Source of the DNA: Williamsia sp.
GTDB taxonomy: Bacteria > Actinomycetota > Actinomycetes > Mycobacteriales > Mycobacteriaceae
Length of the DNA stretch: 41,948 nucleotides
Direction of reading: 5' to 3'
Assembly: GCF_016462415.1 (NCBI RefSeq)
Contig: NZ_JAEMTF010000030.1
Span: forward strand, 1 to 41,948
Shown: piece after piece, positions 678 through 27,451 of the stretch
How positions within the stretch are numbered: the first letter of the stretch is position 1
Layout: the number at the start of each line of letters is the position of its first letter
The notes under the pieces: model-generated
Databases searched by the model: none
Told to the model about the DNA's origin: nothing
The model's input: the letters and a program-made list of their open reading frames with translations, nothing else
Translations under genes and position numbers: made by a program

Positions 678-1814
678 CTACGCGACAAAGTCCACGATCC
701 GCACGACAGCGCGCGTCGGCGGCGCCGAGAATTCCGAAGGATCAAATGCGCTGTCGACAAGCCATTCCCCAACCCTAGAAGGTAGTCGGCAGTCGGAGTC
801 GACAGGCACCTCTGCGCTTAGACGGACCTGTTCCTGTCCGACCAAGAATCCAGTCTCGTCAAAAAATTCGATTGCTATCGAGGGAACTGACACACAGAAC
901 GGTACCGAAGCGTCGAGCCGCTTCTCGTCATGGATCCAGTCCGCATCTCGGAACATGGCCCACACATCACTGAGCTTGCCTACCAGAATGGTTCCGGATA
1001 GCTTGATGTTTCCGTACTCAACTCCGTCGGATACTGCTCGGAAGGCCAGGACGTCAGCCGAGTCGATTCGTAAACTGACTCCCTTTCGCCCGGTCTCATC
1101 AACGATCTCGACGTCGAGCTTCACCGGCTGGGTTGGGAGCCGGAAGGCGCCACCTTCGTAGGCGTCGAAACAAGCAACGGTAATGAAAACATCATCGTGA
1201 TCAAACGATGACCTAGTGTCGAAGGGCCTGGACCCCGAAAACCGGATTGGTTTCAGCAGATCTTCTCCGCTCGCAAAGAATGCCAACAGGCTGATATCGA
1301 ACTCGGAAAGACTTCGCGAGCTGATCGTCACCACAATCGGTGCTGAGAGTTCCCGACTGAACCGGAAGCAGTCAACCCAACCCAACGGGTTAAATCGCGC
1401 GGTACCAAACAAGTTAACCTCGTGGAACGGACTTCCGCCATCGTCGAACTCAGTAGTGACCCGCGCGCGTATCTCGAGGACTTCCCAGCCGCGCTTCGAT
1501 AGGGCATCTCTATTGATATCGACCAGGATTTCAGTAGTTCTTTTACCGTTTTCATCAATTTTTCTGACCGTCCGCGGGCGCGTAGGACTAGCCAGCTCGA
1601 CACTGCTTTCGAGAGGGCCCGCGAGGGGCACGGAGTCCTCTCGTTGCAGCGATACTGCATCTGCGGGCCCGGCGTCTGACGCTATTCGCGGCCCAACAGG
1701 CGGGACTTGCGGTATAGGGAATTGCGTATCTTGCGTCCAATTCTTGCCGTCCCACCACCTGAGAAGTCCGGCGACCGTGGGATCGAAGTACCAACCCGCA
1801 GCTAGCTGGTTCAT
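678..1814 (-). CDS. DUF2510 domain protein with a long beta-rich C-terminal region
   Basis: The protein has 378 residues. Residues about 6-32 hold the DUF2510 signature, a GWY..D...GLLRWWDGKNWT pattern. In actinobacteria this small tryptophan-rich module is usually found at the N-terminus of membrane or secreted proteins. Here no transmembrane segment follows. The remaining 300 or so residues are polar and rich in predicted beta strands, and I do not recognise them. A TATAGA box lies upstream on the minus strand near 1892, but no convincing -35 accompanies it. The gene lies 112 bp downstream of the large DUF4011 helicase on the same strand and may be its accessory. No function can be assigned. 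Confidence 0.8.
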   Translation of the reverse strand: MNQLAAGWYFDPTVAGLLRWWDGKNWTQDTQFPIPQVPPVGPRIASDAGPADAVSLQREDSVPLAGPLESSVELASPTRPRTVRKIDENGKRTTEILVDINRDALSKRGWEVLEIRARVTTEFDDGGSPFHEVNLFGTARFNPLGWVDCFRFSRELSAPIVVTISSRSLSEFDISLLAFFASGEDLLKPIRFSGSRPFDTRSSFDHDDVFITVACFDAYEGGAFRLPTQPVKLDVEIVDETGRKGVSLRIDSADVLAFRAVSDGVEYGNIKLSGTILVGKLSDVWAMFRDADWIHDEKRLDASVPFCVSVPSIAIEFFDETGFLVGQEQVRLSAEVPVDSDCRLPSRVGEWLVDSAFDPSEFSAPPTRAVVRIVDFVA

Positions 1815-1926
1815 TTGCTACTACCTAACCTGACACGAACAGTGGCTTGTGAACACTCGTGGCACTCTTGCGAGTGCGAGCGGGATGAGTCTATAAAGCG
1901 CGCGTCAAGGTATCCGCTAACCTCCT

Positions 1927-4900
1927 TCACTCGTCGAAGACAAGCCTGAGGTCTTCGGCGCCCTCTCGTAGCAACAGCTCATTCGCAACAAGACGCGTCA
2001 CAATGCCGCTCAGCGAAGCGCGAATTTCTGCACCTAGCCGCTGCCAACCAAATACTGCGGCGGTTTGTTTGACCAAAGTTGTTTCGTCGAGCACTACAGC
2101 GTCTTGGACGAGACGTAGCATGGTGTGCTCAATCTCCTCCGGCGGCACGAGACTCACTTTGCGCTCACCTGAATGCTCTCCGGGGATACGAACCGAAGTG
2201 GTCTTTGCATCTCGGACACGGTAGAAACCTTCGGTATCAGGGCCGCGTTCGTGTGCACGGGCTAGAGCTTCGTCAACAGACTTGCGAATCTGAGCGCCAA
2301 TTCGTCCGACCCCCCACGCCTCTCTGAAACGCTCATGTAGTAGCTCGCGATGGATCGGCGCCTCGGCGCGAATAACCTTGCCAAAATATTCCGCCATATC
2401 GCGAACGCCTTCGATCGTCTTAGGGTCGCGGGCTCTCAGCGGAGATCCTTCGTATTCGACGTACTCAATCGTCCAATCGAAATCCGCTCCATCCAGCACC
2501 TCCTCGTAAGTGACTTCCTCCGCCACCGACTCAGGCTGTCTCGCTCGCGTCGTCTGACTACCCGACAACCGAATCGCTTCCTCAATATTCGCTTTGAGTC
2601 TGCCTTCTTGTAGCGCTCGATCACGCCACCAACTCAGCCCCCAGATGCGATGGAGCCTCCAGCCGAGTCCCTCCAGGACCTGCTGACGCAGCCGGTCTCG
2701 GTCTCGAGCCGTCTGACCTGAGTGGTAAGCAGCCCCGTCGCACTCAATACCGAGGGCATACTCGCCTGGGCGTTCGGGGTGTCGAATAGCCATATCGATG
2801 CGGTAGCCAGCCACCCCAACCTGTGGGACGACGGTGTATCCCCACGACCGGATTCTCGCAATAACCTGCTCCTCGAAGACGCTCTCAGCCTCGCCTTCGC
2901 TTTCGCGGATTTCCAAAGCCAGAGCAGCGTGGCCTCTCTCGGCGAAATCGAGGTACTGCTGAAGATGCAGGATCGATGGATTGGAGGTCGAGGGCATCTC
3001 AGCCGCTATAAAGGACGAGACAACTTCAATTCGTTTACGCGCACGCGTGGTAGCGACGTTGAGCCGTCGCCAGCCCCCGTCGCGATTAAGCGGACCAAAG
3101 TTGGCAGTGAACTTTCTGTTCTCGTCGGGCCCGTAACCGACGGAAAACAGAATGATGTCACGCTCGTCGCCCTGAACGTTCTCCAAGCTCTTCACGAAGA
3201 ACCCGCCCAATCGGTCGTGATCCGTGAGAATTCCTGCAAGAACGGGATTCTGGGCGCTCTGCGCCTCAATCTCTTGGAGCACCCTGTCTGCTTGGGCACC
3301 TGAGAATGTGACGACGCCAATCGAGTCATTCGGGCGATGTCGCCTGAACCAGATCAGACGTTCGACCACTTTGGACGCCTCGATCGGGTTGTCTCGGCTC
3401 GTCCCGCGGCGGTAGACGCCGTTTACCGGTAGCAACGACACACCGAGGTCAGGCGCATCGAACACCGCGCCCGGAAAGGTCATCAGTCGACCGTCGTAGA
3501 ACCGATGGTTCGAGTAGGCAATGAGGTCTTCATGCCGGCTGCGGTAATGCCAATTTAGCGGTAGCGAACTCAACCCACCTGCGCCCTTGGCCAGGTCGAG
3601 AACAGATTGAAAGTCAGACGCCTCGTTGTCTTCGTCTTCATCGGCTTCGTCTGCCGCGGCTGAGAAGAAGTCGGTGGGAGGCAGCTGCTTTTGGTCGCCC
3701 GCGACGATGAGCTGGCTGCCGCGGTAGATGCAGTTGAGAGCATCAGAAGGCAGCACCTGCGATGCCTCGTCAAAAATGACGACGTCAAATCGCACTGACC
3801 TCGGAAGGTACTGCGAGACCGATAGCGGACTCATCATGAAGCACGGCTTCAGCTGCTGCACTAGGCCAGAAGCTTCATCGAGCAATAGTCGGACTGGCTT
3901 ATGCCGAGTCTTCTTCTCACCTTCGCGTTTGATCACAGACGCGCTTCGACTCGTCAAACTGCTCGGCGCGCGGGAGTTGCAGCGGTCAATCACCCGCGCG
4001 TGGGCGTTTCGGATCAGCGCTCGATCAAGGTCCTGGTACCTAGCGACGAGGTCGTCGCGGCTGTTTGACCGATAATCCAACAACCGAGTGTCGCGGCTCG
4101 TCCTATCGTCCACCCAGGCCTCTAGGACGACATACTCGACCGCTGCCGCGACTTCATTCTGTGATCGTGGCTGCCGCTTCAACTCGAGCAGTATCGAATC
4201 GAGTTGAATTGTGGCCGCCCAGCGCAGTTCGCGCTGAGCGGCACACCACATCTCGATCTCCCTCGGTGCAGTCTCTTCCATCTCTTCGAACAGTTCAAGA
4301 GCTTGATCGAGTCCGGGATCACACTCGGCACGAAGCTCAGCTACACGACGATCGAGGAAGAGAGCGAACAGCTCGTCCCGGCGCACAATCCATGCGTCGT
4401 GCCGGCATGCCAGCTCAGATTGAGGTATCACGCAACGATCAAGACGGCGGGCATCATCCGCGTCTATCGCCCGGGGATAGAGCCGCTGGACGGCCTTCGA
4501 GTGACCTATCGCGTACCTGAGACCCTCAAAATCCGTGGCAAGACTGAGTTCATCACCAAAATTCGCCACATCAGACGCACAGAACTCACCCTGCGCGGCC
4601 TCGAGCCGAATGACGTTTCCCGCCTGACCGACCAACTCAGCTGCCTGTAGAACAGTCAGGTCGCGCTGCGCGATTGACGACACAACCTCGACCACGTGCC
4701 GCACCAGGTCAGTCTCGTCGACCGCTGAGGTCAACCAGCCTCGAGTGGCGACGAGCGAAGCCTTCTCTGACACCTGCGACTTAAGTTCTGCCGGGAGGCT
4801 CTGTAAGAGTCGCCCAAACTTCTGTTCTGCCAACGTAACACGCTGCGCCAATGGCAGCAGACGCGGATTTGGAGTTGAATGCATCGAAAGCTGCGCGGCA

Positions 4901-7437
4901 AGCGCTGCCGGGTTGGCATCAATCCCAGCTAGTCGCAGGGCTTCTCGAGCGTTACCAATCGCGGATCCAATCTCGCCGAACTCTGTCTGTGTTCCCTGGT
5001 AGCGGCTGCCAAGCTCTCGCGCGTGCGTGCCCTCGGCGCGCCGCATATCGGATACGGCCTGCTGCCAGCTCGCAGCTTCCTCTAAGTGGCCGAGCACCGA
5101 TTTGTCGGTTCGGCCGGACACCGACACTGCCTTGATTAGCTTCCGGTCTCTCCGCGCTGCACCACCCCACTTTCTAAATCCAACGTGAGTCTCCCGGAAA
5201 CGCACCACCAGCGATGGCAGATCCAATTCCAGCGCTGCCGGCGTGAACACAGTATGTAGTGCCTGGTGACGACGATTGACGTGTTCGACTACCGCATCCA
5301 TCGCCCGAGCCGCCTGGACCACCCTTTCCACCTCAACAGTGTTGAGCCAGAATGCCTCTGGACGGTTTTGCGCCGAAGCGAGCTGCGCCAAACGCGAGAT
5401 GTCCCCAGACCGCTGCATCGAAACATCCGTGTCCGACAAACCAAGAATCTCGACAAGTTCGGCGACATCCGATAGCACCTCGCCTGCAGTGACGTTTAAG
5501 GCGGTCAAAGTAGTCGCAATGCCGTCCATATCCCTCGCGGTAGAGGAGTTGACGATCCTGTCGTTGTTGAGCGCCTGGCTCAGTGGCGCGCTCAGACTAG
5601 GATTAATCTCGCGCCACCGTACGTAGCCGCTCTCATGCAACGATTCGGTCTCGAGAGCAATTTCGTTGACGGCGGCCTGGCCTTGCGCGAGTCTCCCTTC
5701 TATGGTTTCGAGATCGGAATGGTCGTACCAGACTGGAAATCCTGGCCTTCGTAGATCCAATTCCGCGAGGAGGCTAAGCCGTGCATTCAAGCTCTCTGCG
5801 CTTGAATCAAGCTTGAGCCCAAGGTCTTCGTCGATCGTGTGCAGACGATCCTGGAGTAATCCGAGGCCTTCAATCGCCCTTGACACTAGGCGGCGACATT
5901 CGCGCACCTCGGAGGCGTCCACATCGTCCCGCTTAAGGTCGCGCCATAGATACTCGTCTCCGCGGTGAACCGCGTCCCACGAACGTCCGAGATTCTCGGC
6001 GTGATCGCGGATCTCGCTAAGGTCGGCCTCTGAGAGACCCGCCCAGCGCTGATGCTTCGGCAGGGATGCGTCGACGCCGATGTCCAGTTCAGACAGTCGG
6101 CCCAAAACCGCAAAGAGGCTCCACCCGAGTTTGGGGTCGACGGAGTTCATCGCATTCGCAAAATCAGTGAGCTGACGCCGGTCCCTAACGAGCGAACGAG
6201 CGTCTTGATCACTGAAGCTGTTTGATGGCTTGACCCGATTCTGAAGCGTTCGGGATAGCTCAGCTGCGACCTCTTTGCGCGTAGCTGAATGGCTGTGAAG
6301 CTCAAACAGAAAGTGACTAAGCCCGGCATTCGTCAAACGGTCACGAACGACATCTAGCGCCGCAGCCTTCTCGCTGACGAAAAGCACCGTCTTTCCAGCA
6401 GCCATCAGCTCGGCGATCATGTTCGCGATTGTCTGGCTCTTTCCGGTCCCCGGGGGCCCGTCCATCACGAAGCTCCGTCCATCAGTGGCGGAGATGATGC
6501 AGCGACGCTGGCTAGAGTCCGCATCCAAGATGCTGAACATGGACTCCGGTGGCTTCGCCTCGTCCAGCCCGTCTAGCGACAGCTCATCGAAGCCGTAATC
6601 GTCGTGCGACGGCGCTTCTGGACCCAGCGCGAGCAGCTGAACCATGCCGTGTTCGGCAATCTCAGCAGAGTTGGCCAGTAGGTCCTGGTACATCGCCTCC
6701 TTCTGGAAGGTGAAGTTACCGAGGACCATTCGCTGGTCAATTCGCCACGACGCGTGGCCATTGATCGACTCTTCGAGCTCGAGGACAAACATCTGCATTG
6801 AGACGTCATCCGGATCAACTTCCGGAAGCTCGACTCCATACTCGCTCAACTTGAGCTTCAGCACGGGATTGACGGTGATGTCGTCTTCGGTGCGTTCAAG
6901 GACGTACGGCGAGTCTGCGCCCGTCTTCACTACACGCACTGGCACGAGCAAAACAGGACTGTCCACCTGAGCGCCATCATCGTTCGAATCGACCCAGTGA
7001 AGCATCAACAAGCCGAGGTACAAGGTCCAGACACCGCGATCCGCGAACGCCTGACCGGAGGCCTGCTCGATGCGGCGCATCGCTGGCCGCAGTTGCTCGT
7101 CCTGCTTGTCCTTGACGTAAAGCGAACGCGCCAGTCTCGCTTGCCCCTCGGTGAGTGCGGGCCGAACGGGAACCGTCGTGTCCGCGAGCATCGAGAGCGT
7201 CTCGAGTGGTGACGCATGGTCAAACTCCAGCGTCCCCGCCTTCAGGTGCTTGAAGTAGAGCAGCCGCTGACGACGATCCATCGCCAGCAAGCTGTCTCGC
7301 CATTTCGCAAGAGTCGAATCGAGCCGTGCCTGAATCCGCGGCTCCAGCGGCGCTGCCGTGTCGCCGGGGAGCGCGTCACCATTTAGTCCTGTTGGCAAAT
7401 CTTGTCCTTCTCCGACGTCGACCTCTGCGGCAGCCAC
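1927..7437 (-). CDS. DUF4011 SF1 helicase with MTES_1575/Vsr-like nuclease and DUF3320
   Basis: This 1836-residue protein begins with a DUF4011-type region around the LDSTLAKWRDSLL segment. An SF1 helicase core follows: Walker A GPPGTGKS near residue 325, Walker B FDEAS near 1220, AGDQKQLPP near 1245, and NVQGDERD through NVATTRAR near 1420-1460. Residues about 1515-1600 match the restriction-endonuclease-like MTES_1575 domain, with YRIDMAI, GIECDGAAYH and WWRD segments. DUF3320 follows near 1670. Proteins of this architecture are frequent in defence islands and are predicted DNA or RNA translocases with a nuclease tail; the target is unknown. The GTG start has an AGGGG immediately before it, which is too close for an ideal ribosome site. 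A TTG at 7398 with a GGAGAAGGA upstream is an alternative. Confidence 0.9.
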   Translation of the reverse strand: MAAAEVDVGEGQDLPTGLNGDALPGDTAAPLEPRIQARLDSTLAKWRDSLLAMDRRQRLLYFKHLKAGTLEFDHASPLETLSMLADTTVPVRPALTEGQARLARSLYVKDKQDEQLRPAMRRIEQASGQAFADRGVWTLYLGLLMLHWVDSNDDGAQVDSPVLLVPVRVVKTGADSPYVLERTEDDITVNPVLKLKLSEYGVELPEVDPDDVSMQMFVLELEESINGHASWRIDQRMVLGNFTFQKEAMYQDLLANSAEIAEHGMVQLLALGPEAPSHDDYGFDELSLDGLDEAKPPESMFSILDADSSQRRCIISATDGRSFVMDGPPGTGKSQTIANMIAELMAAGKTVLFVSEKAAALDVVRDRLTNAGLSHFLFELHSHSATRKEVAAELSRTLQNRVKPSNSFSDQDARSLVRDRRQLTDFANAMNSVDPKLGWSLFAVLGRLSELDIGVDASLPKHQRWAGLSEADLSEIRDHAENLGRSWDAVHRGDEYLWRDLKRDDVDASEVRECRRLVSRAIEGLGLLQDRLHTIDEDLGLKLDSSAESLNARLSLLAELDLRRPGFPVWYDHSDLETIEGRLAQGQAAVNEIALETESLHESGYVRWREINPSLSAPLSQALNNDRIVNSSTARDMDGIATTLTALNVTAGEVLSDVAELVEILGLSDTDVSMQRSGDISRLAQLASAQNRPEAFWLNTVEVERVVQAARAMDAVVEHVNRRHQALHTVFTPAALELDLPSLVVRFRETHVGFRKWGGAARRDRKLIKAVSVSGRTDKSVLGHLEEAASWQQAVSDMRRAEGTHARELGSRYQGTQTEFGEIGSAIGNAREALRLAGIDANPAALAAQLSMHSTPNPRLLPLAQRVTLAEQKFGRLLQSLPAELKSQVSEKASLVATRGWLTSAVDETDLVRHVVEVVSSIAQRDLTVLQAAELVGQAGNVIRLEAAQGEFCASDVANFGDELSLATDFEGLRYAIGHSKAVQRLYPRAIDADDARRLDRCVIPQSELACRHDAWIVRRDELFALFLDRRVAELRAECDPGLDQALELFEEMEETAPREIEMWCAAQRELRWAATIQLDSILLELKRQPRSQNEVAAAVEYVVLEAWVDDRTSRDTRLLDYRSNSRDDLVARYQDLDRALIRNAHARVIDRCNSRAPSSLTSRSASVIKREGEKKTRHKPVRLLLDEASGLVQQLKPCFMMSPLSVSQYLPRSVRFDVVIFDEASQVLPSDALNCIYRGSQLIVAGDQKQLPPTDFFSAAADEADEDEDNEASDFQSVLDLAKGAGGLSSLPLNWHYRSRHEDLIAYSNHRFYDGRLMTFPGAVFDAPDLGVSLLPVNGVYRRGTSRDNPIEASKVVERLIWFRRHRPNDSIGVVTFSGAQADRVLQEIEAQSAQNPVLAGILTDHDRLGGFFVKSLENVQGDERDIILFSVGYGPDENRKFTANFGPLNRDGGWRRLNVATTRARKRIEVVSSFIAAEMPSTSNPSILHLQQYLDFAERGHAALALEIRESEGEAESVFEEQVIARIRSWGYTVVPQVGVAGYRIDMAIRHPERPGEYALGIECDGAAYHSGQTARDRDRLRQQVLEGLGWRLHRIWGLSWWRDRALQEGRLKANIEEAIRLSGSQTTRARQPESVAEEVTYEEVLDGADFDWTIEYVEYEGSPLRARDPKTIEGVRDMAEYFGKVIRAEAPIHRELLHERFREAWGVGRIGAQIRKSVDEALARAHERGPDTEGFYRVRDAKTTSVRIPGEHSGERKVSLVPPEEIEHTMLRLVQDAVVLDETTLVKQTAAVFGWQRLGAEIRASLSGIVTRLVANELLLREGAEDLRLVFDE

Positions 7438-7995: not shown

Positions 7996-9192
7996 TCACA
8001 CCAGCTTTTCCAACGACTCCTTGGTCTCACTTAGTACTTCCTGCGCGATCGTGACCAGTTCTTCACGTTCGTCACCACCAGCCACCAAGATCCGCTCCGC
8101 ATCGAGAGCGGCAGCAGAGATCTGGCACGCCGCGATTGCAACGAATCGCTCCCATTGTTCTTGCTGCTCCGGAGTCATCGTGTCCCATTCGAAGGGCGGT
8201 TCGCCTATCTCTCGTGCCCACCGCTTCAGCGCGTGGCCACCGTGCGTTGCGACATAGTTCAAGATCTCGGCTGCGTCAGGGATCAGTTCGGCCAGCGCAT
8301 CGACTCCGCGAGCTGTGCTGTCGAGCTGGGCCTGAGCCTTGTTAAGTGCGTCAGCTCGCTCTTGGTTCTGCTTCTTACTACGACGAGCCACCCACACCAT
8401 CGCTCCAACCGCAAGAAGAGCTGCCGGCGCCGCCACAACGCCCGCGAGAATAGCTGCCCCACCGGCCATCCCGGCACCGCCTGCGGCAAGAGTTCCACCA
8501 CCCAGTAGCGCTAGGGCCGCGTTGGTGGCAGCGACTCCCGACAGGCTGGATACAGCGACCCCCGTGGATGCCGTGCCGAAAGAGACAGCGGCTAGAAATG
8601 TCCCGTACGCGGCGGCTCCACCAGCTGCAGCGCCAGCGACCGCTCCGCCGGCTCCCCCAGCAAGCACATGCCTGATTCCATAGTTTGCCGCGAGTCGTCG
8701 CTGTACTGCGACGGAGTGCGCCGATGGCGCACCCTCAACATTGGCCAGCTCCTGCTCGGGTTGCGGGGATCCTGAAATCTGCTGGGCCAATGCGACGAAC
8801 GGCATAAAAAATTCATCACGCGCACGGTCGTGCGCGCTGTTGAAACCGTCTGTCGAGCTCTCGATGAGGAATGTCCTGCGCTCGACCTCAGCCTGGATAG
8901 CTCCCGCCCGCTCGCGCACGGACGTCTCACTCGGAAGCGGATCTGCCGTCCCCGTCTGCTCACCCGACTTAGCAGCTTTCGCCTCCAGCGCATCGACCGA
9001 CGTACCAAGCACGTTGGCAATGCCAACGAGCCGAGCACGACTGGGTCGCGTCTGGCCTGACTCGATGCGAGAAATTGCGACACCAGCACCCAAGCCATAT
9101 CCCGCCTGAGTACCTAACTGCTCTTGAGTCACGTTGTGCGACTCTCGAATCTCCTTGACCGCCGCGCCGAGCGCAGCCTTTGAGTACGGCAT
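7996..9192 (-). CDS. XRE-family HTH regulator with glycine-rich membrane hairpin
   Basis: The protein has 398 residues. Residues about 6-70 form a Cro/C1-type helix-turn-helix (VTQEQLGTQAG, then SRIESGQTRPS). A polar linker follows. Residues about 175-275 are almost entirely Gly, Ala, Val, Ser and Leu, with segments such as GGAGGAVAGAAAGGAAAYG and LLGGGTLAAGGAGMAGG, ending in a basic stop ARRSKKQ. This looks like a membrane-inserting glycine-zipper hairpin. The C-terminal 120 residues are helical and acidic. A DNA-binding head on a potential membrane body is unusual: the protein may be both regulator and effector (inference). A TATAGT box sits six bases before the ATG, implying a leaderless transcript. 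It is divergent from the Gre-UDG operon. Confidence 0.85.
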   Translation of the reverse strand: MPYSKAALGAAVKEIRESHNVTQEQLGTQAGYGLGAGVAISRIESGQTRPSRARLVGIANVLGTSVDALEAKAAKSGEQTGTADPLPSETSVRERAGAIQAEVERRTFLIESSTDGFNSAHDRARDEFFMPFVALAQQISGSPQPEQELANVEGAPSAHSVAVQRRLAANYGIRHVLAGGAGGAVAGAAAGGAAAYGTFLAAVSFGTASTGVAVSSLSGVAATNAALALLGGGTLAAGGAGMAGGAAILAGVVAAPAALLAVGAMVWVARRSKKQNQERADALNKAQAQLDSTARGVDALAELIPDAAEILNYVATHGGHALKRWAREIGEPPFEWDTMTPEQQEQWERFVAIAACQISAAALDAERILVAGGDEREELVTIAQEVLSETKESLEKLV

Positions 9193-9501: not shown

Positions 9502-10632
9502 ATGACGATTTCCGCCCGCGCCGACCGCGAACAATCGCTCTACGAGCGGGCAATCGCCGACGCAGATCAGCTTCGGCTCACGCTGAGCGAGCGACTCGGC
9601 AACCTCACCAAGAACCGTTCACGAGGCGACGAGCCAAAGCGACGACGCTTGGAATCCGATCTCGCCGACGCGGAAAAGCATTGCGCCGATCTGCGGACCA
9701 ACCTCGCCAACTTTCTGGCAGCGAAGGACCGTCTCGTCGAGTGGGGGCCGACGAGATACTGGGTTGTGGCCGGATCCATCGTCACGCTCGAGTTCCCCGG
9801 TCGCGAGACGACTCTCAGATCCTTTGTTCGCACCGATCAACCTGAAGACCCCGACTTCGAAGCGGTCGCAACGAACTCTCCTCGCGGCATCGCTCTCCGC
9901 AACAAGCGAATAGGCGATCGCGTGCAGTGGGGCCCGGCAGCAAATCAATCCGCCCTCGTGGTCGACGTGCGGCCCGGCTTCGACGACCCGTTGGGCCGCA
10001 CCCAACTTCCTTCTACCCGCTACGCAGTTCCGGCCCTATCGCGCGCTTTGCGCGACGACACGCTACGTCGTATCCGCTTCGAAGGTGTCCACGACCCGCA
10101 CGTCCGTTCTATCAACGAACTCGCTCGCTCGATCGGTGATCGAGAGAAATGTGCGGGCCAGGTGCCGTTGGTGGACCCGACCTTCGGTGGTTGCGAGGCT
10201 AAAATCATCTTCTTACTAAAGTCACCGCAGGCAGACGCTTCGATCGATCGTGGCGAGAACCGACTCCTGTCGCTGGACAACGACGACAACGGCGCCGAGC
10301 TGATGTTCAACGCTGTTCAGTCAACCGGGCTGCGACGTGCGGACTGCGTCGCTTGGAATCTGTGCCCGTTCCCGACCGTGCGCTACAACCCAAACGACGC
10401 CGACATCTCGCGAGGACTCGGCCACCTCAACGCGTTGCTCGGCGAGATCCGGAACCCTCGCGTCATCATCACATTCGGAGGCGTGCCGAAGACCGGTGTT
10501 GCCGGCGCCGACTCTGGCTGCGTGCGGTCAGGCGTCAAGATCCTCAACGCCCCATCCCCTTTCGCGCGGACCGACCCTTCAAGGGCGATCCGCGATGCGA
10601 TGTTGAATGCGAAGCAGTTCATTCAGCCTTGA
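9502..10632 (+). CDS. Fusion of a Gre-like transcript cleavage factor with a uracil-DNA-glycosylase-superfamily domain
   Basis: Start chosen at ATG 9502, giving 376 residues. Residues about 10-79 form a helical hairpin whose turn carries the acidic pair D43-E44, much as the GreA coiled coil carries its tip acids. Residues about 86-143 resemble the Gre C-terminal domain: VVAGSIVTLEFPG, then NSPRGIAL and NKRIGDRVQW. Residues about 200-376 form a UDG-superfamily domain: PLVDPTFGG, AKIIFLLKSP, LLSLDNDD, VAWNLCPFP and IITFGGVP. The second UDG-like protein in this window (26789-27451) shares these blocks. Gre factors enter the RNA polymerase secondary channel, while UDG-family enzymes remove bases from DNA. 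Base removal linked to transcription is my inference. I know of no described enzyme with this fusion. Confidence 0.82.
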   Translation: MTISARADREQSLYERAIADADQLRLTLSERLGNLTKNRSRGDEPKRRRLESDLADAEKHCADLRTNLANFLAAKDRLVEWGPTRYWVVAGSIVTLEFPGRETTLRSFVRTDQPEDPDFEAVATNSPRGIALRNKRIGDRVQWGPAANQSALVVDVRPGFDDPLGRTQLPSTRYAVPALSRALRDDTLRRIRFEGVHDPHVRSINELARSIGDREKCAGQVPLVDPTFGGCEAKIIFLLKSPQADASIDRGENRLLSLDNDDNGAELMFNAVQSTGLRRADCVAWNLCPFPTVRYNPNDADISRGLGHLNALLGEIRNPRVIITFGGVPKTGVAGADSGCVRSGVKILNAPSPFARTDPSRAIRDAMLNAKQFIQP

Positions 10633-10985
10633 CGGAGGCGGGTCGTGGAGCTTCCCGCCGAGCTGCTTGCCGGCTAATCCCAGCAGACGGAAAAGTAGCG
10701 CACTTCCCGATCGCCGATCCCCTGCGATCTTGCGGATGGCTCAGTAGTGTCGAGTCATCGTACGCACGTACGTGTCACAAACGTCGGTCAAAGGGGACGG
10801 TTTGGTTCAGGCCTCGCTGGGCGGAGGATCGAGCGCTGTCGCTGCCTCGTCTCACGCAGCTTGCGCACGCTTCCGTGGCACAGACCCTCTGGTCGTCGGC
10901 CGAACTAGACGGACACTCGCGCGCGACGTCGGTTTCCCTGACGACTCCGGCAAGATTCCAGAGGCTCGATGGATGCGGGCGATGA
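10629..10985 (+). CDS. Possible 118-aa ORF bridging the Gre-UDG and nuclease genes
   Basis: This frame could start at a TTG whose last two bases overlap the Gre-UDG stop. It remains open for 118 codons and ends 13 bases inside the nuclease gene. The product is basic and has no domain I recognise; the second half (for example WFRPRWAEDRALSLPRLTQL) looks more protein-like than the first. The alternative is that the nuclease gene begins further upstream, at GTG 10772, and this frame is a shadow. Codon composition does not decide between them by eye. Confidence 0.25.
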   Translation: MTEAGRGASRRAACRLIPADGKVAHFPIADPLRSCGWLSSVESSYARTCHKRRSKGTVWFRPRWAEDRALSLPRLTQLAHASVAQTLWSSAELDGHSRATSVSLTTPARFQRLDGCGR

Positions 10986-13522
10986 CGTTCGAGCGTCTTG
11001 TTCGCGACCAGCGCTTCGCGAGCGAGGTCGCGACCACAACGGTCGGCCGGCTGGAACTCACCCGCCCGACCAGCGTCGTCACAGTCAATGCAAACGTCAG
11101 CTCGGCGAAGACTGCACAGCTCTTAGGGGCAGCACACGCCCGAGCGATCACGGAAAACGCCGCGACTCTCATCCACGCGGTCGCGCTACCGTTCCCCGGC
11201 TTCGAAGGCCGGGAGGCGTCGGAGGTGAAACCCGATTTCGCGATAGTGGCGCCGCAGACCGTCGCCGGCCAATCGTGGCTGATCATGGGCGACGCGAAGG
11301 ACTACGAACGGGTTCGCTCTCGTGTGGACGATGCTCGCCTGCTGAAGGGGTTTCTCCAAGTCGCGCTTGGCGCTGAGGCCGCCGCGAGCTGGTCGAAGCT
11401 ACCGGCTGACATGAATGTCCACACTCACGGCGTCCTCGCTGTGCCACGTAACGCGTTTCTTCAGCCTGAAGCCCTCGTCGACGCCCTCGTCGATCATCGC
11501 GAGGAGGTACGGATGCGTATCGCGGAACGGGTAGCCGAAGCGAGCGGCACTGCGTTCAAGACCTCGACGAAAATCGACGATTACGTCGCCCACCTCAAAG
11601 CAACATTCGATCCGGCGTCGTGCACGACGTGCACCCTCTTCAGCTTCTGCCGGAACGAACTACGGACCTCGTCGGATCCGGCAGACCTTCTGATCGAGCT
11701 GGGGATCGCGGCCGACGAGCGACCGCTCCTCGCACCGTTGCTCGATGACCCAAGTTCGGAAACTGCGGCGCCGGCCTCAGTTCACGCAAACGTGAGGGCG
11801 ACCCTGACCGGCGTGGCCGAGACCACCGGCCAGCGTCGCACGGATCCCGTTGGACTACCCGGCAACATCTACGTGGCGATCGCCAAGTCTGATAGCGCTG
11901 CACTCGGCGTCCACGGTATGTCGGTCTCTCGCCAAACGGCGAGGGATGCCGCCGCCTGGTCGAAGACCGTGTTCGACGACCCGCAGTCACCCGACACTCG
12001 ACGACGCATCATGCGCATTCTCGGTGGCGAGATAGAACGGGCAATGGCTGCGCAGGAGAAGGCAAAGCCTCTCGCTCCGAGTCCCATCCACATCGTCGTT
12101 CCTGACAAGCCGACTGCGGACATCCTTGCTTCGATCGCCGACAACCTCGCCGGAGTCGAGCTGAGCCGACTTCGTTGGGCTCGCGACATGGAGGCCGGCC
12201 GTGAACCGCTCACGTACAACGGCGAGCCAGCAGTGGTACCGAAGAAGCTGAGCGCCACCGAACGGACCGCGGTGTCATTCTTGCTCGAAGAAGACAGAGC
12301 CCGGGCCGTGATCCTGCGGTCTCCCGTCGTGGATCTGAGATCCGTCTTGGCCTCGCACCTTGTCGCGGGGGGACCGACGGTGGCGTCGTACCGCCTCGAC
12401 TACCTGGTTGAGTGGGCCGAAACACTGACGAAGAAGCCAGCCGACCCCCGCAAGCTTGAAGATGTGATCGAATCGTCCCGAAGTACACCGGGCGCCAGGC
12501 TGACCAGCAAGCAGTCAGACGACATTCATACCGCGCTGACCGGTCGCGGGCGCGTACCAGGAAAAGCGGGCAAGAGCTCCGACCCCAATCGCTACAAACG
12601 CCTCGTCGAGAGCGAACTCGAGTACAAGCAGGACTTCTTCGATCGGGCGTTCACCGTGCTGCACAGCTTTGAGGACTCGGCGCTCTTGGAGACCTACCGA
12701 GCTATCGAAGGCGACGCTCAAGAAGTGTGGAGACGCAGACTGAACCTTCACGCGTCGGATCTGGTGCGATTCGGCCGGACCTACCGCTACTGGCGAAACA
12801 ATCTCGTGCCGGTGATCGAGAGCGATGGAACGTGCCGGACCCAGCTCTTGTCCTTGTCCAACCGGCAGACCGCACATGATATGGCTGCAGATGCCGGCAA
12901 CAGGTTTGTGGCGTTTGCGCGTGTCATCTCCCTCGAGCCAGTCACGCTCGAGGTCAGGTCACGAAGAATCGGCGAAGGATCGCGAGTAGTCCTGCTCCAC
13001 AACGACGACGCAGCATCCGTGGAGGATCCATCGGTCTCAGTCGTCGCGCAGAAGGGAAGCTTCAAATTCACCGGGCTCGCAATCGGCCCACTCAGCGAGA
13101 CCGACATCGCCAACCACTACACGTGGACTCCGGCGACTCAGCCCGAATTGGTGGTCGGCGACAGGATCGTGGTGGCCGACTTCGCTTGGTACTGCGATCT
13201 GAAGAAGAACACTCAACTCACCGTCGCGCGGCCGAAGGCTGACGAAAATATGGCACCGACGCCAGGTTGCACCGAGAGCAGTTACGACACTGCGCCACAG
13301 GCACATCAGTGGTGCTGCAAATCGCATGAGGTGAATGAGGCTGCCTGGTCAGACCAACTAGCGAAACGTCGCGCCCGCGGAGAGCTGAATCCCGAAGCCT
13401 GGCCACCTGTCATCGACGGCGACGCATTCGAGGTAGCCCCCAAGGGCGCCCCGATCGGCAACGCAACGTCTGAGCCGGCAACGACCGCGCCCGACTCGAT
13501 CACCATCGACGATTTGGATTGA
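10973..13522 (+). CDS. RecB-like PD-(D/E)XK nuclease with Cys cluster
   Basis: Start set at ATG 10973 because AGAGG lies eight bases upstream; the frame is open back to GTG 10772. The protein has 849 residues. The nuclease core is near the N-terminus: KPDFAIV with D88, then WLIMGDAKDY with D107 and K109, the PD-(D/E)XK pattern. C217, C220 and C226 (CTTC then C) follow, as in RecB/Cas4-like nucleases where such cysteines hold an Fe-S cluster. A fourth partner is not obvious. The rest contains a beta-rich region around RSRRIGEGSRVVLL and a second Cys/His-rich patch (CTESSYD through WCCKSHE) near the C-terminus. It sits four bases before a helicase gene. The TM0106-type family joins a RecB nuclease and an SF1 helicase in one chain, so this pair may be a split version. 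Confidence 0.75.
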   Translation: MRAMTFERLVRDQRFASEVATTTVGRLELTRPTSVVTVNANVSSAKTAQLLGAAHARAITENAATLIHAVALPFPGFEGREASEVKPDFAIVAPQTVAGQSWLIMGDAKDYERVRSRVDDARLLKGFLQVALGAEAAASWSKLPADMNVHTHGVLAVPRNAFLQPEALVDALVDHREEVRMRIAERVAEASGTAFKTSTKIDDYVAHLKATFDPASCTTCTLFSFCRNELRTSSDPADLLIELGIAADERPLLAPLLDDPSSETAAPASVHANVRATLTGVAETTGQRRTDPVGLPGNIYVAIAKSDSAALGVHGMSVSRQTARDAAAWSKTVFDDPQSPDTRRRIMRILGGEIERAMAAQEKAKPLAPSPIHIVVPDKPTADILASIADNLAGVELSRLRWARDMEAGREPLTYNGEPAVVPKKLSATERTAVSFLLEEDRARAVILRSPVVDLRSVLASHLVAGGPTVASYRLDYLVEWAETLTKKPADPRKLEDVIESSRSTPGARLTSKQSDDIHTALTGRGRVPGKAGKSSDPNRYKRLVESELEYKQDFFDRAFTVLHSFEDSALLETYRAIEGDAQEVWRRRLNLHASDLVRFGRTYRYWRNNLVPVIESDGTCRTQLLSLSNRQTAHDMAADAGNRFVAFARVISLEPVTLEVRSRRIGEGSRVVLLHNDDAASVEDPSVSVVAQKGSFKFTGLAIGPLSETDIANHYTWTPATQPELVVGDRIVVADFAWYCDLKKNTQLTVARPKADENMAPTPGCTESSYDTAPQAHQWCCKSHEVNEAAWSDQLAKRRARGELNPEAWPPVIDGDAFEVAPKGAPIGNATSEPATTAPDSITIDDLD

Positions 13523-13526
13523 CACA

Positions 13527-15035
13527 GTGGCAGTGAGGTTCACCCCCCCGACTGCGATCAGCGGATCCGACGATCGCGTCCACCATGCGCAGGCCGCAGC
13601 AAGCAACGCCGCAGTATCAAAGGAGGCCGTCGGCGTGCTACGCGACGCTCTCACAGGGACGGCAGACGTTAAACGAATCCTGTTGAAGGCAGCCGCAGGT
13701 GCCGGAAAGTCCTTCGCTCTGCAGGAGCTAGTTGCGAACGCGGTTGCCCACCCTGACTGTTCACGGGTGGTTGTCGTCGCGTTCACCAACAAGCAGATTC
13801 ATCCGTTGGCCATCGCGCTTGGCAAGAAACTCGGCAAGAACAAGGTGTGCTTGTTCGTCTCCAAAGACCGCTGGGGTGACGTGCCCGAGGAGGCGCATCG
13901 CTACGCCGAGGTAGCCACGTCGACGTCTGGCATCCCTCATACGTGCGACGTGATCATTTCGACGAGCCACAAGCTCGGAGCGATCGGTGAACTCGCCCGC
14001 CAGGTGAAGGCGTTCGGAGCCGGTCAGAACGGCAGTTCCGCTTTTGACGTTCTGTTCGTCGACGAAGCGTGGCAGCTGCCGCACCATCTGTTCGACAAGG
14101 TGGCCAAAGCCGCACCCATCACTGTCGGCGTCGGTGACGTCGGCCAGTTGCCGCCGCTCGAGGTCGGCGACAACCCGTGGCGGGGCGACCCCGGCTTCAA
14201 CCCGTACCGCGCGTGGCCGACCGACTTCGACAATGACAAAGACACCTGGTCGAGGGAGCTCCCCGCTGTATGGCGGCCCACTGCCGGTCAACTCGATCTA
14301 TGGCGAGCCTTCTACCCCGAGTGGGACCACCTCAATTGCGTGGCAGCCCCCGGCGACAGGAAACTCCTTGCGGAGGGTCTCAACGGCGATGCCCAGACCA
14401 TCTGGAAGCAAGTTGGCACGGGGGTACCAACACTCGTCGAAGTCGAAGGGTTGCCTATCGCCGAGGCAGCTGACATCGATCTGCCCCTGATCGGCGTCGT
14501 CGAGGAACTGCTTGAACGTCTCCTGGCGAGCAAATTTTTACTACAGCGGGCCGATTACGACTCGGCCGGTTCCCCAAACGGGAAGACCGTCGAGACCGCA
14601 CCAGGCAAGCCGGCCGGCGATCCCCTGATCGCGATACTGGCAACGAGAAACCAAGCTGTCGACGACGCCGAGGACATCGCTGAGCGACTACGCAAGAAGT
14701 TCGGCTTGGCGCCGACGGAAGTGGTGGCTTCGACCGTCGACTCCTGGCAGGGCCAGACCAACGGCATCACCGTCGCGATCCACCCTCTGAACGGCGCCAC
14801 CGACCTCAACGAGTTCAACTCAGCGTTCGGACGACTCGCTGTGACGTGCACTCGCGCAACCCACGGTCTCCTGATGCTGACGAGGCCGGGCCTAACTCAG
14901 CTGCTGGGCGACGCGCCAGCCCGGCCCGGGACACCGTTCGGCGAGCCCGGGAACCGAAATCTCCCCCGCCAAACGCATCAACGCATTCTCGCTACCTTCG
15001 CTACAGGCACGTTGACGGTGCCGGAGAACACGTGA
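13527..15035 (+). CDS. Upf1-like SF1 helicase/ATPase
   Basis: The protein has 502 residues and starts at a GTG four bases after the nuclease stop. Motifs in order: Walker A GAGKS at 58-62, Walker B FVDEAW with D179-E180, motif III GDVGQLPP near 206, ASTVDSWQGQT near 400, and AVTCTRATHGLLML near 440. These are the SF1 motifs of Upf1/Dna2-type enzymes, which translocate on single-stranded nucleic acid. No nuclease or zinc domain is fused to it; the upstream gene supplies the nuclease. The two products probably act as a complex in the Gre-UDG cassette (inference). The stop overlaps a GTG that opens a 50-codon frame leading to the first type ISP gene. Confidence 0.88.
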   Translation: MAVRFTPPTAISGSDDRVHHAQAAASNAAVSKEAVGVLRDALTGTADVKRILLKAAAGAGKSFALQELVANAVAHPDCSRVVVVAFTNKQIHPLAIALGKKLGKNKVCLFVSKDRWGDVPEEAHRYAEVATSTSGIPHTCDVIISTSHKLGAIGELARQVKAFGAGQNGSSAFDVLFVDEAWQLPHHLFDKVAKAAPITVGVGDVGQLPPLEVGDNPWRGDPGFNPYRAWPTDFDNDKDTWSRELPAVWRPTAGQLDLWRAFYPEWDHLNCVAAPGDRKLLAEGLNGDAQTIWKQVGTGVPTLVEVEGLPIAEAADIDLPLIGVVEELLERLLASKFLLQRADYDSAGSPNGKTVETAPGKPAGDPLIAILATRNQAVDDAEDIAERLRKKFGLAPTEVVASTVDSWQGQTNGITVAIHPLNGATDLNEFNSAFGRLAVTCTRATHGLLMLTRPGLTQLLGDAPARPGTPFGEPGNRNLPRQTHQRILATFATGTLTVPENT

Positions 15036-15184
15036 GGCTTACGCACACGACCGTGGACCGGCGGCGCGCGCTCGAGATTGCGCTCAGACGTCCCACCTGC
15101 GACATAGAGTCGGACATCATTCAATACTCGCCGGTCGCAATAACGCTGGCTCAGACGAACATTAAAACAAGGTGGTGTCAATAG
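15032..15184 (+). CDS. Possible 50-aa bridging ORF with GTGA overlap
   Basis: GTG 15032 overlaps the TGA of the helicase gene (GTGA), and the frame ends two bases before the likely GTG start of the type ISP gene. The product, starting VRLTHTTVDRRRALEIALRR, has no recognised domain. It may simply be a chance frame through which ribosomes pass, or the region may hold the promoter of the type ISP gene. There is no independent support for a functional protein. Confidence 0.2.
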   Translation: MRLTHTTVDRRRALEIALRRPTCDIESDIIQYSPVAITLAQTNIKTRWCQ

Positions 15185-15186
15185 TC

Positions 15187-18100
15187 GTGGCGGGTGTGCA
15201 CGAAGTTATCGAGGCGTTTCGGGACGAGCGCACCAATTCCGGGCGGGGAACGAAGTTCGAGGAACTGATGGTCCGGTTCTTTGAACTCGATCCGACGATG
15301 AACCAGCAGTACGACGCCGTATGGCGCTGGATGGATTGGCCGGGTCGCGAAGGTAGGCCGGATACCGGTATCGATCTGATCGCGCGAGACCGCGAGACCG
15401 GCGACATGACGGCGATCCAGTGCAAGTTCTACGAGCCGACACACACCCTGCGCAAGGAAGACATCGACTCGTTCTTCACCGCGTCGGGTCGAGAGCCGTT
15501 TCGCAATCGGATAATCATCTCCACCACCGACAGGTGGGGCCGTAACGCCGAAGACGCGATCGAGGGCCAGCAGATCCCGGTGCAGCGCCTCGGTCTCGCC
15601 GACATCGCCGATTCTCCGATCGACTGGGACATCGCCTGGCCGCAGGGTGACCTCCGCATCGAGTTGGCGCCCGCGGTCAAGCACCAACCCCGTCCCCATC
15701 AGCAGCAGGCCATCGACGCGGTGTTCGCCGGATACGAGGCAGGAAACGATCGCGGCAAGCTCATCATGGCGTGCGGTACCGGAAAGACGTTCACCGCGTT
15801 GAAGATAGCCGAGCGCGCCGCTCGCGAGAACGGCGGCTCGGCGCGCATCCTGTTCGCCGTGCCGTCGATCTCGCTGTTAAGCCAGACTCTTCGGGAGTGG
15901 ACCGGGCAGACCGGGATCGACATACGCGCGTTCGCGGTCTGTTCGGACACGAAGGTGTCCCGCGCAGCGGAGGACATCAGCGTTGTCGACGTCGCCATCC
16001 CGGTCACCACCGACGGGCCCACCCTGGCCGCACACATGGCCCACCGCAAACGGTCGAAGGGCCTCACGGTGGTGTTCACCACCTACCAGTCGCTGCCGGC
16101 GGTAGCCGACGCGCAGACCCGCGGTGTCGACCCGTTCGACCTGGTGATCTGCGACGAGGCGCACCGCACTACCGGTGTCACCGTCGCCGGGGTCGACGAG
16201 TCGAACTTCGTGAAGGTCCACGACAACGACTTCCTCGCCGCCACTCGCCGGCTGTACATGACCGCGACACCGAGGATCTTCGCCGAGGCGATGCGGGAGA
16301 AGGCCGAGGAACACTCCGCGGAGCTGACCTCGATGGACGACGTCGAGATCTACGGCCCCGAGTTCCATCGCCTGTCGTTCGGTGACGCCGTCGAGCGTGG
16401 GCTGCTCACCGACTACAAGGTCATCGTCCTCACCGTGGACGAGTCGTTGATCGCCGCGCCGATGCAGAACCAGCTAGCCGGCGACTTCGCCGAGCTGCAA
16501 CTCGATGACGCCTCCCGCATCGTCGGGTGTTGGAACGGACTGGCCAAGCGGGCCGGAACCAGTCCGGAGGGGCACGGTTTCGCCCTGGGGGAGCCGCCGA
16601 TGCGCCGCGCGGTCGCGTTCGCCAAAGACATCAAGGCCTCCAAGCAGGTGGCCGAGGTGTTCCCCGCGGTGGTCGACGCCTACCGTGACCTGCTCGAGGA
16701 CGCCGAGAACGACGGCGAGAACGACGGTTCGGCGAACCGCGACCTACACTGCGAGGTCCACCACGTCGACGGCACCTACAACGCACTGCAGCGCAACCGC
16801 GAATTGCAGTGGCTCAAAGCGCCGTTCCCCGAGGGAGAATGCCGCATCTTGTCCAACGCGCGGTGCCTGTCCGAAGGTGTCGACGTGCCGGCCCTCGACG
16901 CCGTGCTGTTCCTGCACCCCCGCAACTCGGTGGTCGACGTGGTCCAGTCGGTGGGCCGCGTGATGCGGCTCTCGGAGGGCAAGGACTACGGCTACATCAT
17001 TCTGCCGGTCGCCGTTCCGTCTGGTGTCAGCCCGTCGCAGGCCCTCGGCGACAACCGACGGTTCAAAGTGGTGTGGCAAGTCCTCAACGCACTGCGCGCA
17101 CACGACGATCGCTTCAACGCGATGGTCAACTCCATCGCCCTGAACTCCGCGACCGAAGAAGCGAAGAAGGGCAAAGGCAACGACCGTCTACTTGGCGGGC
17201 ACATCGGTCCTACCGCTGAGGAAGCGGAGACGATCAACGACGGCAACAAGGGCGAAGATACGGGAACGAAGAACACCGGCCGCGACACAGCCGCGCAGAT
17301 GGCGCTGTTCGCACTCAGCGAGTGGCAGGAGGCCATCTACGCGCGCATCGTCGACAAGGTCGGCACCCGGGTCTACTGGGAACAGTGGGCGGCCGATGTC
17401 GCGGACATCGCCTCCGCACAGATCGCGCGCATCAACGCGCTACTCGACGGCGCGTCGGAGGAGGTTGCCGCTCAGTTCGAGAAGTTCCTGAAAGGGTTGC
17501 GCGACAACCTCAACGACTCCATCAGCCGCGACGACGCGATCAGCATGCTCAGCCAACACCTCATCACCAAACCAGTGTTCGATGCCCTGTTCGGCGGCCA
17601 CGACTTTGCCGCGCACAACCCCGTCTCGATCGTCATGCAGCAGATGGTCGACGTTCTCGGCGACGCCAATCTCGAATCCGAGACCGCGAGCCTCGACTCG
17701 TTCTACGCCTCGGTGCGGGTGCGGGCTTCGGAGGTCACCAGCGCCGAGGGTAAGCAGCAGGTGATCGCCGAACTCTACGAACGGTTCTTCCGCGTCGCGT
17801 TCAAGAAGCAGTCCGACGCGCTGGGCATCGTTTACACCCCCGTCGAGATTGTCGACTTCATCCTCCGCGCAGCCGACCACGTCTCGAAGGAACACCTCGG
17901 CAAGGGGCTCACCGACGAGGGCGTGCACATCCTGGACCCGTTCACCGGCACCGGCACCTTCCTCACCCGCCTGCTGCAGTCCGGGCTGATCTTGCCCGAC
18001 GATCTGGCGCGCAAGTATCGAGAAGAGCTGCACGCCAACGAGATCATGCTGCTTGCCTACTACATTGCGGCAGTCAACGTGGAGACCACTTTTCATGCGC

Positions 18101-26788: not shown

Positions 26789-27451
26789 CTACGCCTTCAG
26801 ATGAGCGGCCAAATCACGAATCGCATTCTCGAAACGGGACCTGCTGTCTGATGTACTAAGTCCACGTCGACTGCAATGTGGAACATCCTCGGTCACCTTC
26901 AGATTGTTCGAGTCGATAGCTGCCCTGCGCCAGCCATCCTCGGCCGCCCGACCGAGAAGCAACACATAGTCGACGCGTGGACACAACGCGAAGATCGCTC
27001 TTGTCCATTCCGCACCGCGCTGCCGCTCTGAGGCCATTGACGACCCGTTGCTCTGATTGGCAGTCGGGAAGGGACAGACGTTCCAGTGCACGACATGTTT
27101 CCAATCAACCCCGAACTGCTTGTAAGCCAACCGGCAGTTCTTAGCTGTTGCATCGTTGTTGTCGAGACTGAGTAGCCCGCTTCCTGTGCCCGCCTCGGCC
27201 TTCGTGCTCGGGTTGTCGAGAAGCACCAGGACTCGCGCGTTGGTTCCACCCTGGGCTGGATCGACGTAGGGCACGTGCCCACGGGGTAGTCCGTAGGTGT
27301 CTGCGATCTCATCTGCCAGAGCATTGATCGGCGCGACGTGCGGCTCGCGGATACGGCGCATTTTGTCGGCGACGAACCCGAGATCGTGATTGCGTCCCAA
27401 CTGGGCCACCTTGATTGCCTCTTCCTCTTCCATGTTCGCAGTGCTGGTCAC
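26789..27451 (-). CDS. Uracil-DNA-glycosylase-superfamily protein
   Basis: The protein has 220 residues from GTG 27451; ATG 27433 is an alternative start. The blocks VPYVDPAQGGTNARVLVLLD, LLSLDNNDATAKN, VVHWNVCPFP and VDYVLLLGRAA place it with UDG-superfamily proteins. The same blocks occur in the Gre-UDG fusion at 9502-10632, so the window holds two members. UDG-superfamily enzymes remove bases from DNA. Brig1, a member of this superfamily, protects bacteria from phages with glucosylated hydroxymethylcytosine, which makes a defence role plausible here. The start lies about 20 bases downstream of the winged-helix nuclease gene, so the two are probably one transcript. Confidence 0.82.
   Translation of the reverse strand: MTSTANMEEEEAIKVAQLGRNHDLGFVADKMRRIREPHVAPINALADEIADTYGLPRGHVPYVDPAQGGTNARVLVLLDNPSTKAEAGTGSGLLSLDNNDATAKNCRLAYKQFGVDWKHVVHWNVCPFPTANQSNGSSMASERQRGAEWTRAIFALCPRVDYVLLLGRAAEDGWRRAAIDSNNLKVTEDVPHCSRRGLSTSDSRSRFENAIRDLAAHLKA

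Follow-up and report, generated by a model that had tools for sequence, protein, structure and literature searches.

Does the open reading frame at positions 9502 to 10632 of this Williamsia contig join a Gre-type factor of RNA polymerase (RNAP) to a domain of the uracil-DNA glycosylase (UDG) superfamily, and what might such a protein do? The window, by which we mean the whole stretch of 41,948 nucleotides that was analysed, carries this frame on its plus strand, from an ATG at 9502 to a stop at 10632, and the frame encodes a single chain of 376 amino acids. A sequence-only reading had placed the frame there and had picked out of its translation the acidic pair D43-E44 and the strings SPRGIAL, IGDRVQW, VDPTFGG, LLSLDNDD and WNLCPFP, every one of which is found in the 376-residue chain. 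Its assignment of the two halves to the Gre and UDG-superfamily folds is backed by profiles, by structure prediction (AlphaFold2, with fold comparison by Foldseek and VIA-align) and by independent fusions elsewhere.

Domain layout and further fusions

The GreA_GreB C-terminal family of Pfam matches residues 88-156 of the window protein with 17.8 bits (E 0.0033; curated cut-off 26.9), and the Pfam UDG family matches residues 266-356 with 20.5 bits (E 0.00053; curated cut-off 24.3). The best NCBIfam matches for the frame are GreA (19.4 bits) and PRK05892 (17.5 bits). When PDB chains were searched, phmmer with the window fusion returned no match up to E 10, the fusion profile matched five Gre chains, all weakly, plus an unrelated kinase chain, and the UDG profile returned one irrelevant chain and nothing else. 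Taken alone the Pfam scores are weak, and it is two other lines of evidence that settle the identity of the protein, namely the predicted structure and the homologues.

The AlphaFold2 model, computed from a 7-row alignment (mean pLDDT 71, pTM 0.51), contains helices at residues 3-37 and 44-79, a beta domain at 92-158 and an alpha/beta domain at 199-376. The pLDDT is 79-90 in blocks 11-70, 58 in block 71-80 and 32-33 in the linker blocks 161-180, and a pTM of this size means that the relative placement of the Gre and UDG halves is not predicted. On the plus strand, the chain therefore divides into a Gre N-terminal helical hairpin, defined by its predicted secondary structure (residues 3-79; 9508..9738), a C-terminal, FKBP-like Gre domain (residues 84-158; 9751..9975), a flexible linker of low pLDDT (about residues 160-183; 9979..10050) and a UDG-fold domain (residues 199-376; 10096..10629). 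The nine best Foldseek matches in the PDB include Gfh1 in RNAP complexes (E 3.5e-6), a GreA model, UdgX, SMUG1 and the T. maritima UDG, and a separate model of the Gordonia fusion described below matches GreB, Gfh1, GreA and UdgX.

A search for further fusions and their neighbours found eight beyond the window, several of them beside defence genes. Five have the Gre-UDG order (hereafter type 2) and are carried by two Rhodococcus plasmids, by Prescottella, by Gordonia and by R. aetherivorans, the last being incomplete at a contig end; the other three have the reversed order, UDG-Gre (type 3). The plasmid fusions, in R. ruber Y14 and on pDF02 of Rhodococcus p52, were detected by tblastn among 72,556 plasmid records, where both are annotated merely as 'GreA/GreB family elongation factor'. 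In a family-level search of 401 genomes, Gre-UDG was present in the window genome, Gordonia paraffinivorans, Prescottella subtropica and R. aetherivorans DSM 44752, and a search with the Gre module alone revealed UDG, linker and Gre in one open frame in three genomes of one other genus. Fusions of either order are thus rare, being found in 7 of the 401 genomes, and a scan of genome contigs with narrow sequence patterns located 3 loci. A class-level sample of 394 genomes held no additional match covering both halves, and in an order-level sample of 358 genomes the Gre module matched, at E<=1e-10, the window, one UDG-Gre genome and two GreA-like proteins.

No match was obtained among 50,697 phage records by tblastn with the window fusion, the Gordonia Gre module or the second UDG of the window, none of four proteins matched PHROGs, and viral contigs held no relative when the fusion alignment or GreA was the query. 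With the UDG alignment as query, the viral contigs yielded two distant loci, L093 and L094, that are UDG only. Likewise, a Gre profile found no Gre gene in nine stretches of 7-20 kb around the nearest stand-alone UDGs (L095-L103). In R. aetherivorans DSM 44752 (L062, 10001-10967), the reading frame of the fusion is lost within the UDG half, shortly before the end of the contig, reflecting either decay or an error at the assembly edge.

The homologues also score better at the Gre end. The GreA_GreB cut-off is passed by all three of the other Gre-UDG fusions in the Pfam scan (P0002 from R. ruber, 29.0 bits; L060, 32.6 bits; L061, 31.7 bits), from which P0003 was left out, and the R. aetherivorans fusion reaches 34.1 bits in the genome search, again above the cut-off. 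Two UDG-Gre proteins scanned gave 17.8 and 16.8 bits against the cut-off of 26.9.

These relatives bear directly on the possibility that two separate genes were joined in the window through a sequencing or assembly error. In favour of such an artefact one can point, as a weak argument, to the window protein being the sole fusion found with its UDG subfamily. However, GC content by codon position is uniform along the gene (0.68/0.49/0.71 and 0.63/0.47/0.73 for the two halves), the gene has no ambiguous bases, and fusions with homologous Gre modules occur independently in other genera, so a sequencing join is excluded as a general explanation and we give it a negligible chance for the window.

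The Gre and UDG modules

Compared with GreA by profile, the Gre half scores a probability of 98 (E 2e-13), the GreA rows aligning to residues 10-158 of the window protein. In VIA-align, 75 residues of the C-terminal Gre domain match Gfh1 with a Z of 10.8 and an rmsd of 2.3, whereas the whole Gre part superposes poorly on Gre structures (rmsd 10-17), indicating that the hairpin and the globular domain match separately and that their pose differs. The structural comparison with GreA-type proteins thus finds the Gre fold in the N-terminal half. Like GreA, GreB, Gfh1 and proteins of the Rv3788 type, the fusion has a helical hairpin followed by an FKBP-like C-terminal domain, a serine at the position of S127 and an acidic residue at the hairpin tip. 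Unlike GreA, GreB and Gfh1, its Gre part belongs to a separate clade, has a shorter tip turn and is fused to a UDG-fold domain, in a genome that has its own GreA.

The residues of greatest interest are those studied in the Gre factor of Mycobacterium tuberculosis (MtbGre), and the comparison covered the tip acids D43 and E46, the RNA contacts N47 and Y50, and the RNAP contact S127. According to the MtbGre report (PMC3132773), D43N and S127E are inactive and E46R is active, the effect of S127E being probably due to loss of the interaction with RNAP. The cell's own GreA carries D43, E46 and S127, the positions mutated in MtbGre. Sequence alignment places D43 of the fusion (9628..9630) on Asp43 of this GreA and S126 (9877..9879) on its S127, and the S126 position is also serine in the 6 other fusion rows aligned. 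The acidic pair D43-E44 that had been proposed for the hairpin tip therefore holds for its first member, which aligns with the catalytic Asp of GreA, and fails for its second, which is out of register. In the alignment the tip turn of the fusion is 2-3 residues shorter than that of GreA and E46/N47 are out of register, so that the rest of the catalytic and RNA-contact motif is displaced. The tip D43 is kept in the window and in type 2, and the three type 3 proteins have Glu or Asp. From this pattern of residues we infer that the Gre module probably keeps its docking to RNAP and that transcript cleavage is doubtful.

For the UDG half, the best VIA-align match is UdgX (Z 14.7 over 159 residues, rmsd 2.6), followed by family 4, SMUG1 and TDG, and comparison of the C-terminal residues with the UDG families thus recovers the alpha/beta fold of the superfamily in the predicted structure. 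The best fold match is, by its title, a UdgX mutant cross-linked to DNA (PDB 6l6s). Pfam UDG scores of other fusions scanned are 18.1, 17.1 and 14.1 bits, all less than the cut-off of 24.3, and there is no Pfam UDG match in L060, in L158 or in the second UDG of the window. Given that the UDG halves lie below the Pfam cut-off throughout the fusions scanned, the fold is the evidence for their assignment. Comparing the UDG alignment by profile with two individual UDGs of the same genome was uninformative, the probability being about 1%.

Within this fold, the active-site motifs vary. UdgX and family-4 enzymes have GEAPG or GEQPG as motif A, and active UDGs generally carry an Asp or Asn in motif A (or Ala in families 4 and 5) and a His in motif C. 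The fusions and their kin resemble UdgX and family-4 UDGs in having these as the closest solved fold (Z 12-15 for the window and Gordonia models) and in the Asn of the motif-B strand (WN); they are unlike them in having no PDB sequence match and in a motif A that is KSP or KAP, QDP, or DNP. Judged by eye from the alignments, motif A of the window protein is KSP (S241-P242, 10222..10227), with Ala for Ser in its nine nearest stand-alone kin, QDP in types 2 and 3, and DNP in the second UDG of the window. Motif B (W285-N286 of WNLCPFP, 10354..10359) is invariant in two alignments, its Asn being retained in the window. The motif C region, N349-R356 (NAPSPFAR, 10546..10569), is shorter than in the stand-alone kin and, as in them, has no histidine. 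By the same visual comparison, types 2 and 3 have both the motif-A Asp and the motif-C His. Because the window domain lacks the usual catalytic Asp or Asn of motif A and the His of motif C, we class it by fold and not as an active UDG; on these motifs, the window copy may be altered, being inactive or using other chemistry, and types 2 and 3 look catalytic.

The missing residues of the window copy are what would be expected if the UDG domain, being catalytically dead or a trap, served to recognise modified bases or abasic sites, with the Gre module as the effector that stops or resets RNAP. Retention of an acidic residue at the Gre tip in all types is consistent with that reading, as are the closeness of the fold to UdgX and the best match being a cross-linked UdgX mutant. 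It is opposed by the motif-A Asp and motif-C His of types 2 and 3, and the short tip turn with its RNA-contact residues out of register argues against a strong catalytic Gre effector, such that we regard a dead reader as unlikely.

The two modules have different histories. By maximum likelihood, the Gre halves of the nine fusions form one clade (support 100/100) against 40 other Gre rows, and the clade was recovered again (100/100; 9 versus 46) using other, more divergent Gre rows. Among the UDG halves, those of the Rhodococcus-type Gre-UDG and of the UDG-Gre proteins form one clade (97/84.9), and that of the window groups with stand-alone UDGs that have KAP at motif A, the nearest being L031 at 38-40% identity. 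A single clade of the eight fusion UDG halves in the topology test, which left out the incomplete L062, is rejected (p-AU 0.00046, delta lnL 82.5), as it was in an earlier test with five rows (p 1.7e-5). These trees are to be read with caution for long branches, of about 2.0 for the window Gre and 1.1 for the window UDG. One Gre lineage is thus paired with two UDG lineages, in both orders, and this repeated pairing is the strongest evidence that the combination is functional.

Could the Gre-like part have lost RNAP binding and become a dimerisation or spacer module on what is in effect a stand-alone glycosylase? The Gre half of the window protein is only 33-38% identical to those of the remaining Gre-UDG fusions, its branch is long, and Rv3788, a different homologue of Gre, did not cleave transcripts in the published study (PMC3132773). 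Nevertheless, the fusions retain the Gre elements and a serine at the S127 position, and among them it is the UDG part that varies and the Gre part that stays constant, making this reading quite improbable in our estimation.

Among the relatives of the window UDG, the second-nearest lies at 1435-2703 (-) of L032, where a PIN_3 domain (35.8 bits, cut-off 27) precedes it in the same open frame, a possible PIN-UDG fusion.

Gene neighbourhoods

Clear defence neighbours (DISARM, Wadjet or type ISP restriction) are present at four of the six Gre-UDG loci. On the R. ruber plasmid, DISARM lies upstream of the Gre-UDG gene, the Gordonia locus has Wadjet JetA/JetC, and the R. aetherivorans locus has Wadjet JetB/JetC plus BrxH. 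At the Prescottella locus the neighbours include DarG and ParE. On p52, the sole neighbour of this kind is annotated as 'restriction endonuclease' and had no match in PADLOC or Pfam. In the window itself, the defence-type genes include two type ISP-like restriction enzymes, Mrr and a DUF4011/MTES_1575 helicase-nuclease. As a control, none of 47 open reading frames around three housekeeping GreA genes matched PADLOC at E<=1e-15. The PADLOC scan of 30 open reading frames near the fusions gave the best 25 of 71 families, including some broad models (mad2, PD-T4-6), and the defence neighbours are for this reason given as names and not as a rate.

The reversed fusions have a different setting. The UDG-Gre genes share one conserved, housekeeping-like neighbourhood in all three genomes, with the gene for an amino-acid permease on one side and that for a TetR regulator on the other. 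Four neighbours were scanned at L156 (the permease, the TetR regulator, a metal hydrolase and DUF7802) and none is of defence type; L157 and L158 were judged by the flanking sequence that they have in common with L156. This locus is an argument for host transcription-coupled base excision repair, in which an RNAP-bound UDG would remove uracil or deaminated or oxidised bases and have no phage role, and the motif-A Asp and motif-C His of types 2 and 3, as in family 1 (by eye), also fit that explanation. Speaking against it, Gre-UDG genes occur sporadically, either on plasmids or next to DISARM, Wadjet and restriction genes, the genome encodes three further UDG-family proteins, and the annotation of the stretches around the two plasmid fusions shows no SOS or base-repair gene. 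We consider a purely host repair role unlikely.

A fixed operon of the Gre-UDG gene with the genes downstream of it, for a nuclease-like protein of 916 aa and a helicase of 502 aa, is not supported. The nuclease-like/helicase pair occurs on two Rhodococcus plasmids together with DUF6308 and methyltransferase/helicase genes; on the p52 plasmid about 60 kb separate the Gre-UDG gene from the pair, and the stretch of the AH-ZY2 plasmid around the pair has no annotated Gre-UDG gene.

Several other genes of the window and of related loci deserve mention in their own right. At 10970-15035 (+), the window has a gene pair whose first member encodes a protein of about 850-916 aa that matches no family and whose second encodes a UvrD/RecD-like helicase. 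This first gene has counterparts of about 51% identity on two Rhodococcus plasmids, where the order is DUF6308, the gene for the 850-916 aa protein, the helicase-like gene, a DNA methyltransferase and a DEAD/DEAH helicase, and the pair is perhaps an uncatalogued defence system. The two type ISP-like restriction-modification enzymes are in tandem (15172-20103 and 20632-25584, +) with a 151-aa protein between them, the scan having covered the first part of the second. Divergent from the fusion gene is a helix-turn-helix protein (7996-9192, -) with a C-terminal match to the candidate defence family PDC-M09A, a weaker match to which (27.5 bits) adjoins the Wadjet genes of the Gordonia locus L061 (17184-18719). 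The 1836-aa protein at 1927-7437 (-) combines DUF4011, AAA, MTES_1575 and DUF3320 and is perhaps of the Hhe kind. Finally, on a Rhodococcus plasmid (L027, 7925-10582), a DUF6308 gene lies two genes ahead of a stand-alone UDG.

A possible role at the transcribing polymerase

Both halves of the fusion have counterparts in anti-phage biology. Brig1 (PMC11078745) and Brig3 (PMC13160076) are UDG-superfamily glycosylases demonstrated to be anti-phage effectors, and the proteins studied here are likewise UDG-superfamily members in defence islands. The active-site residues given for Brig3 are N50, E55, W100 and D127 (PMC13160076), and N50-P51-S52-R53-x-E55, as pieced together from that text, resembles DNPSTKAE, the motif A of the second, stand-alone UDG-like protein of the window (220 aa; 26789..27451, -). 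This second protein belongs to a subfamily related to that of the fused domain and shares 39% identity with the fusion over 105 residues. By comparison with the residues described for Brig3, the motif-A Asn is present in this second UDG and absent from the fused one, which has KSPQADA and, unlike the single-domain Brig3, a Gre module. The DNPSTKAE subfamily of the second UDG occurs in many genomes of the family sample.

On the Gre side, GreA/B-C domains have been predicted to act on virus-hijacked RNAP (Kaur et al. 2021, PMC8195603). Those conflict systems, arranged as effector-TPR-GreA/B-C-PIN, resemble the fusions in that a Gre C-terminal domain is proposed to associate counter-invader proteins, with their exchangeable effectors, with RNAP. 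The window fusion differs in having the full Gre hairpin and a UDG-fold partner, and no TPR or PIN domain was matched by Pfam in the window protein. The word 'glycosylase' was not found in the main text of PMC8195603. The view of the sequence-only reading that no enzyme of this kind is known to have been described agrees with the open-licence literature searched, mostly as listings, in which none was found. No report of the combination of Gre with a glycosylase came to light there; the two halves are known separately, from the Brig glycosylases and from the GreA/B-C conflict systems.

What the sequence and the predicted model show is a full-length Gre module, a flexible linker and a UDG-fold domain in one chain. 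The explanation that we favour, while giving it somewhat less than an even chance, is that the protein travels with RNAP, bound by its Gre module, and that it acts on bases in the transcribed DNA, most likely the modified bases of phages, leaving abasic sites. The Gre module would dock in the secondary channel of the host's RNA polymerase, serving as an anchor and not as a transcript-cleavage factor, and the UDG domain, on its linker, would reach the DNA entering or leaving the polymerase. There it could flip out and excise a base outside the standard four, most probably a modified one from the genome of an invading phage, and the abasic sites in transcribed invader DNA would block expression and replication. 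Pairing of one Gre module with two UDG lineages is expected if the anchor is constant and base specificity is exchanged, and the defence neighbours support base excision targeted to transcribed phage DNA, which is plausible. Also speaking for it are the folds of both halves, the eight further fusions, the retained serine and acidic tip residue, the presence in the genome of a GreA of its own and of three other UDG-family proteins, the Brig effectors and the prediction made for GreA/B-C domains. Against this explanation stand the losses in motifs A and C of the window copy, the UDG scores below the cut-off, the housekeeping-like UDG-Gre locus, the restriction of clear defence neighbours to four of the six Gre-UDG loci, the rarity of the fusions and the lack of a fixed operon.

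An actinobacterial fusion that is often near anti-phage genes suggests a possible check of DNA for foreign bases during transcription. A broader proposal, which we put forward as a speculation that is more doubtful than the mechanism above, is an RNAP-guided base-excision immunity in which the Gre anchor is mixed with glycosylase domains of differing specificity, in either order, and RNAP presents the invader DNA.

If the favoured mechanism is true, the fusion would represent a defence enzyme that excises bases while physically attached to RNA polymerase, joining glycosylase immunity to modified phage DNA, as in the Brig systems, with the Gre RNAP-association modules of conflict systems. The natural swaps, with two UDG lineages and two orders, provide matched proteins with which to separate the anchor from the specificity, and transcription-coupled base excision in bacteria would become directly testable. 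The Gre module might, in addition, tether other DNA enzymes to transcribed DNA.
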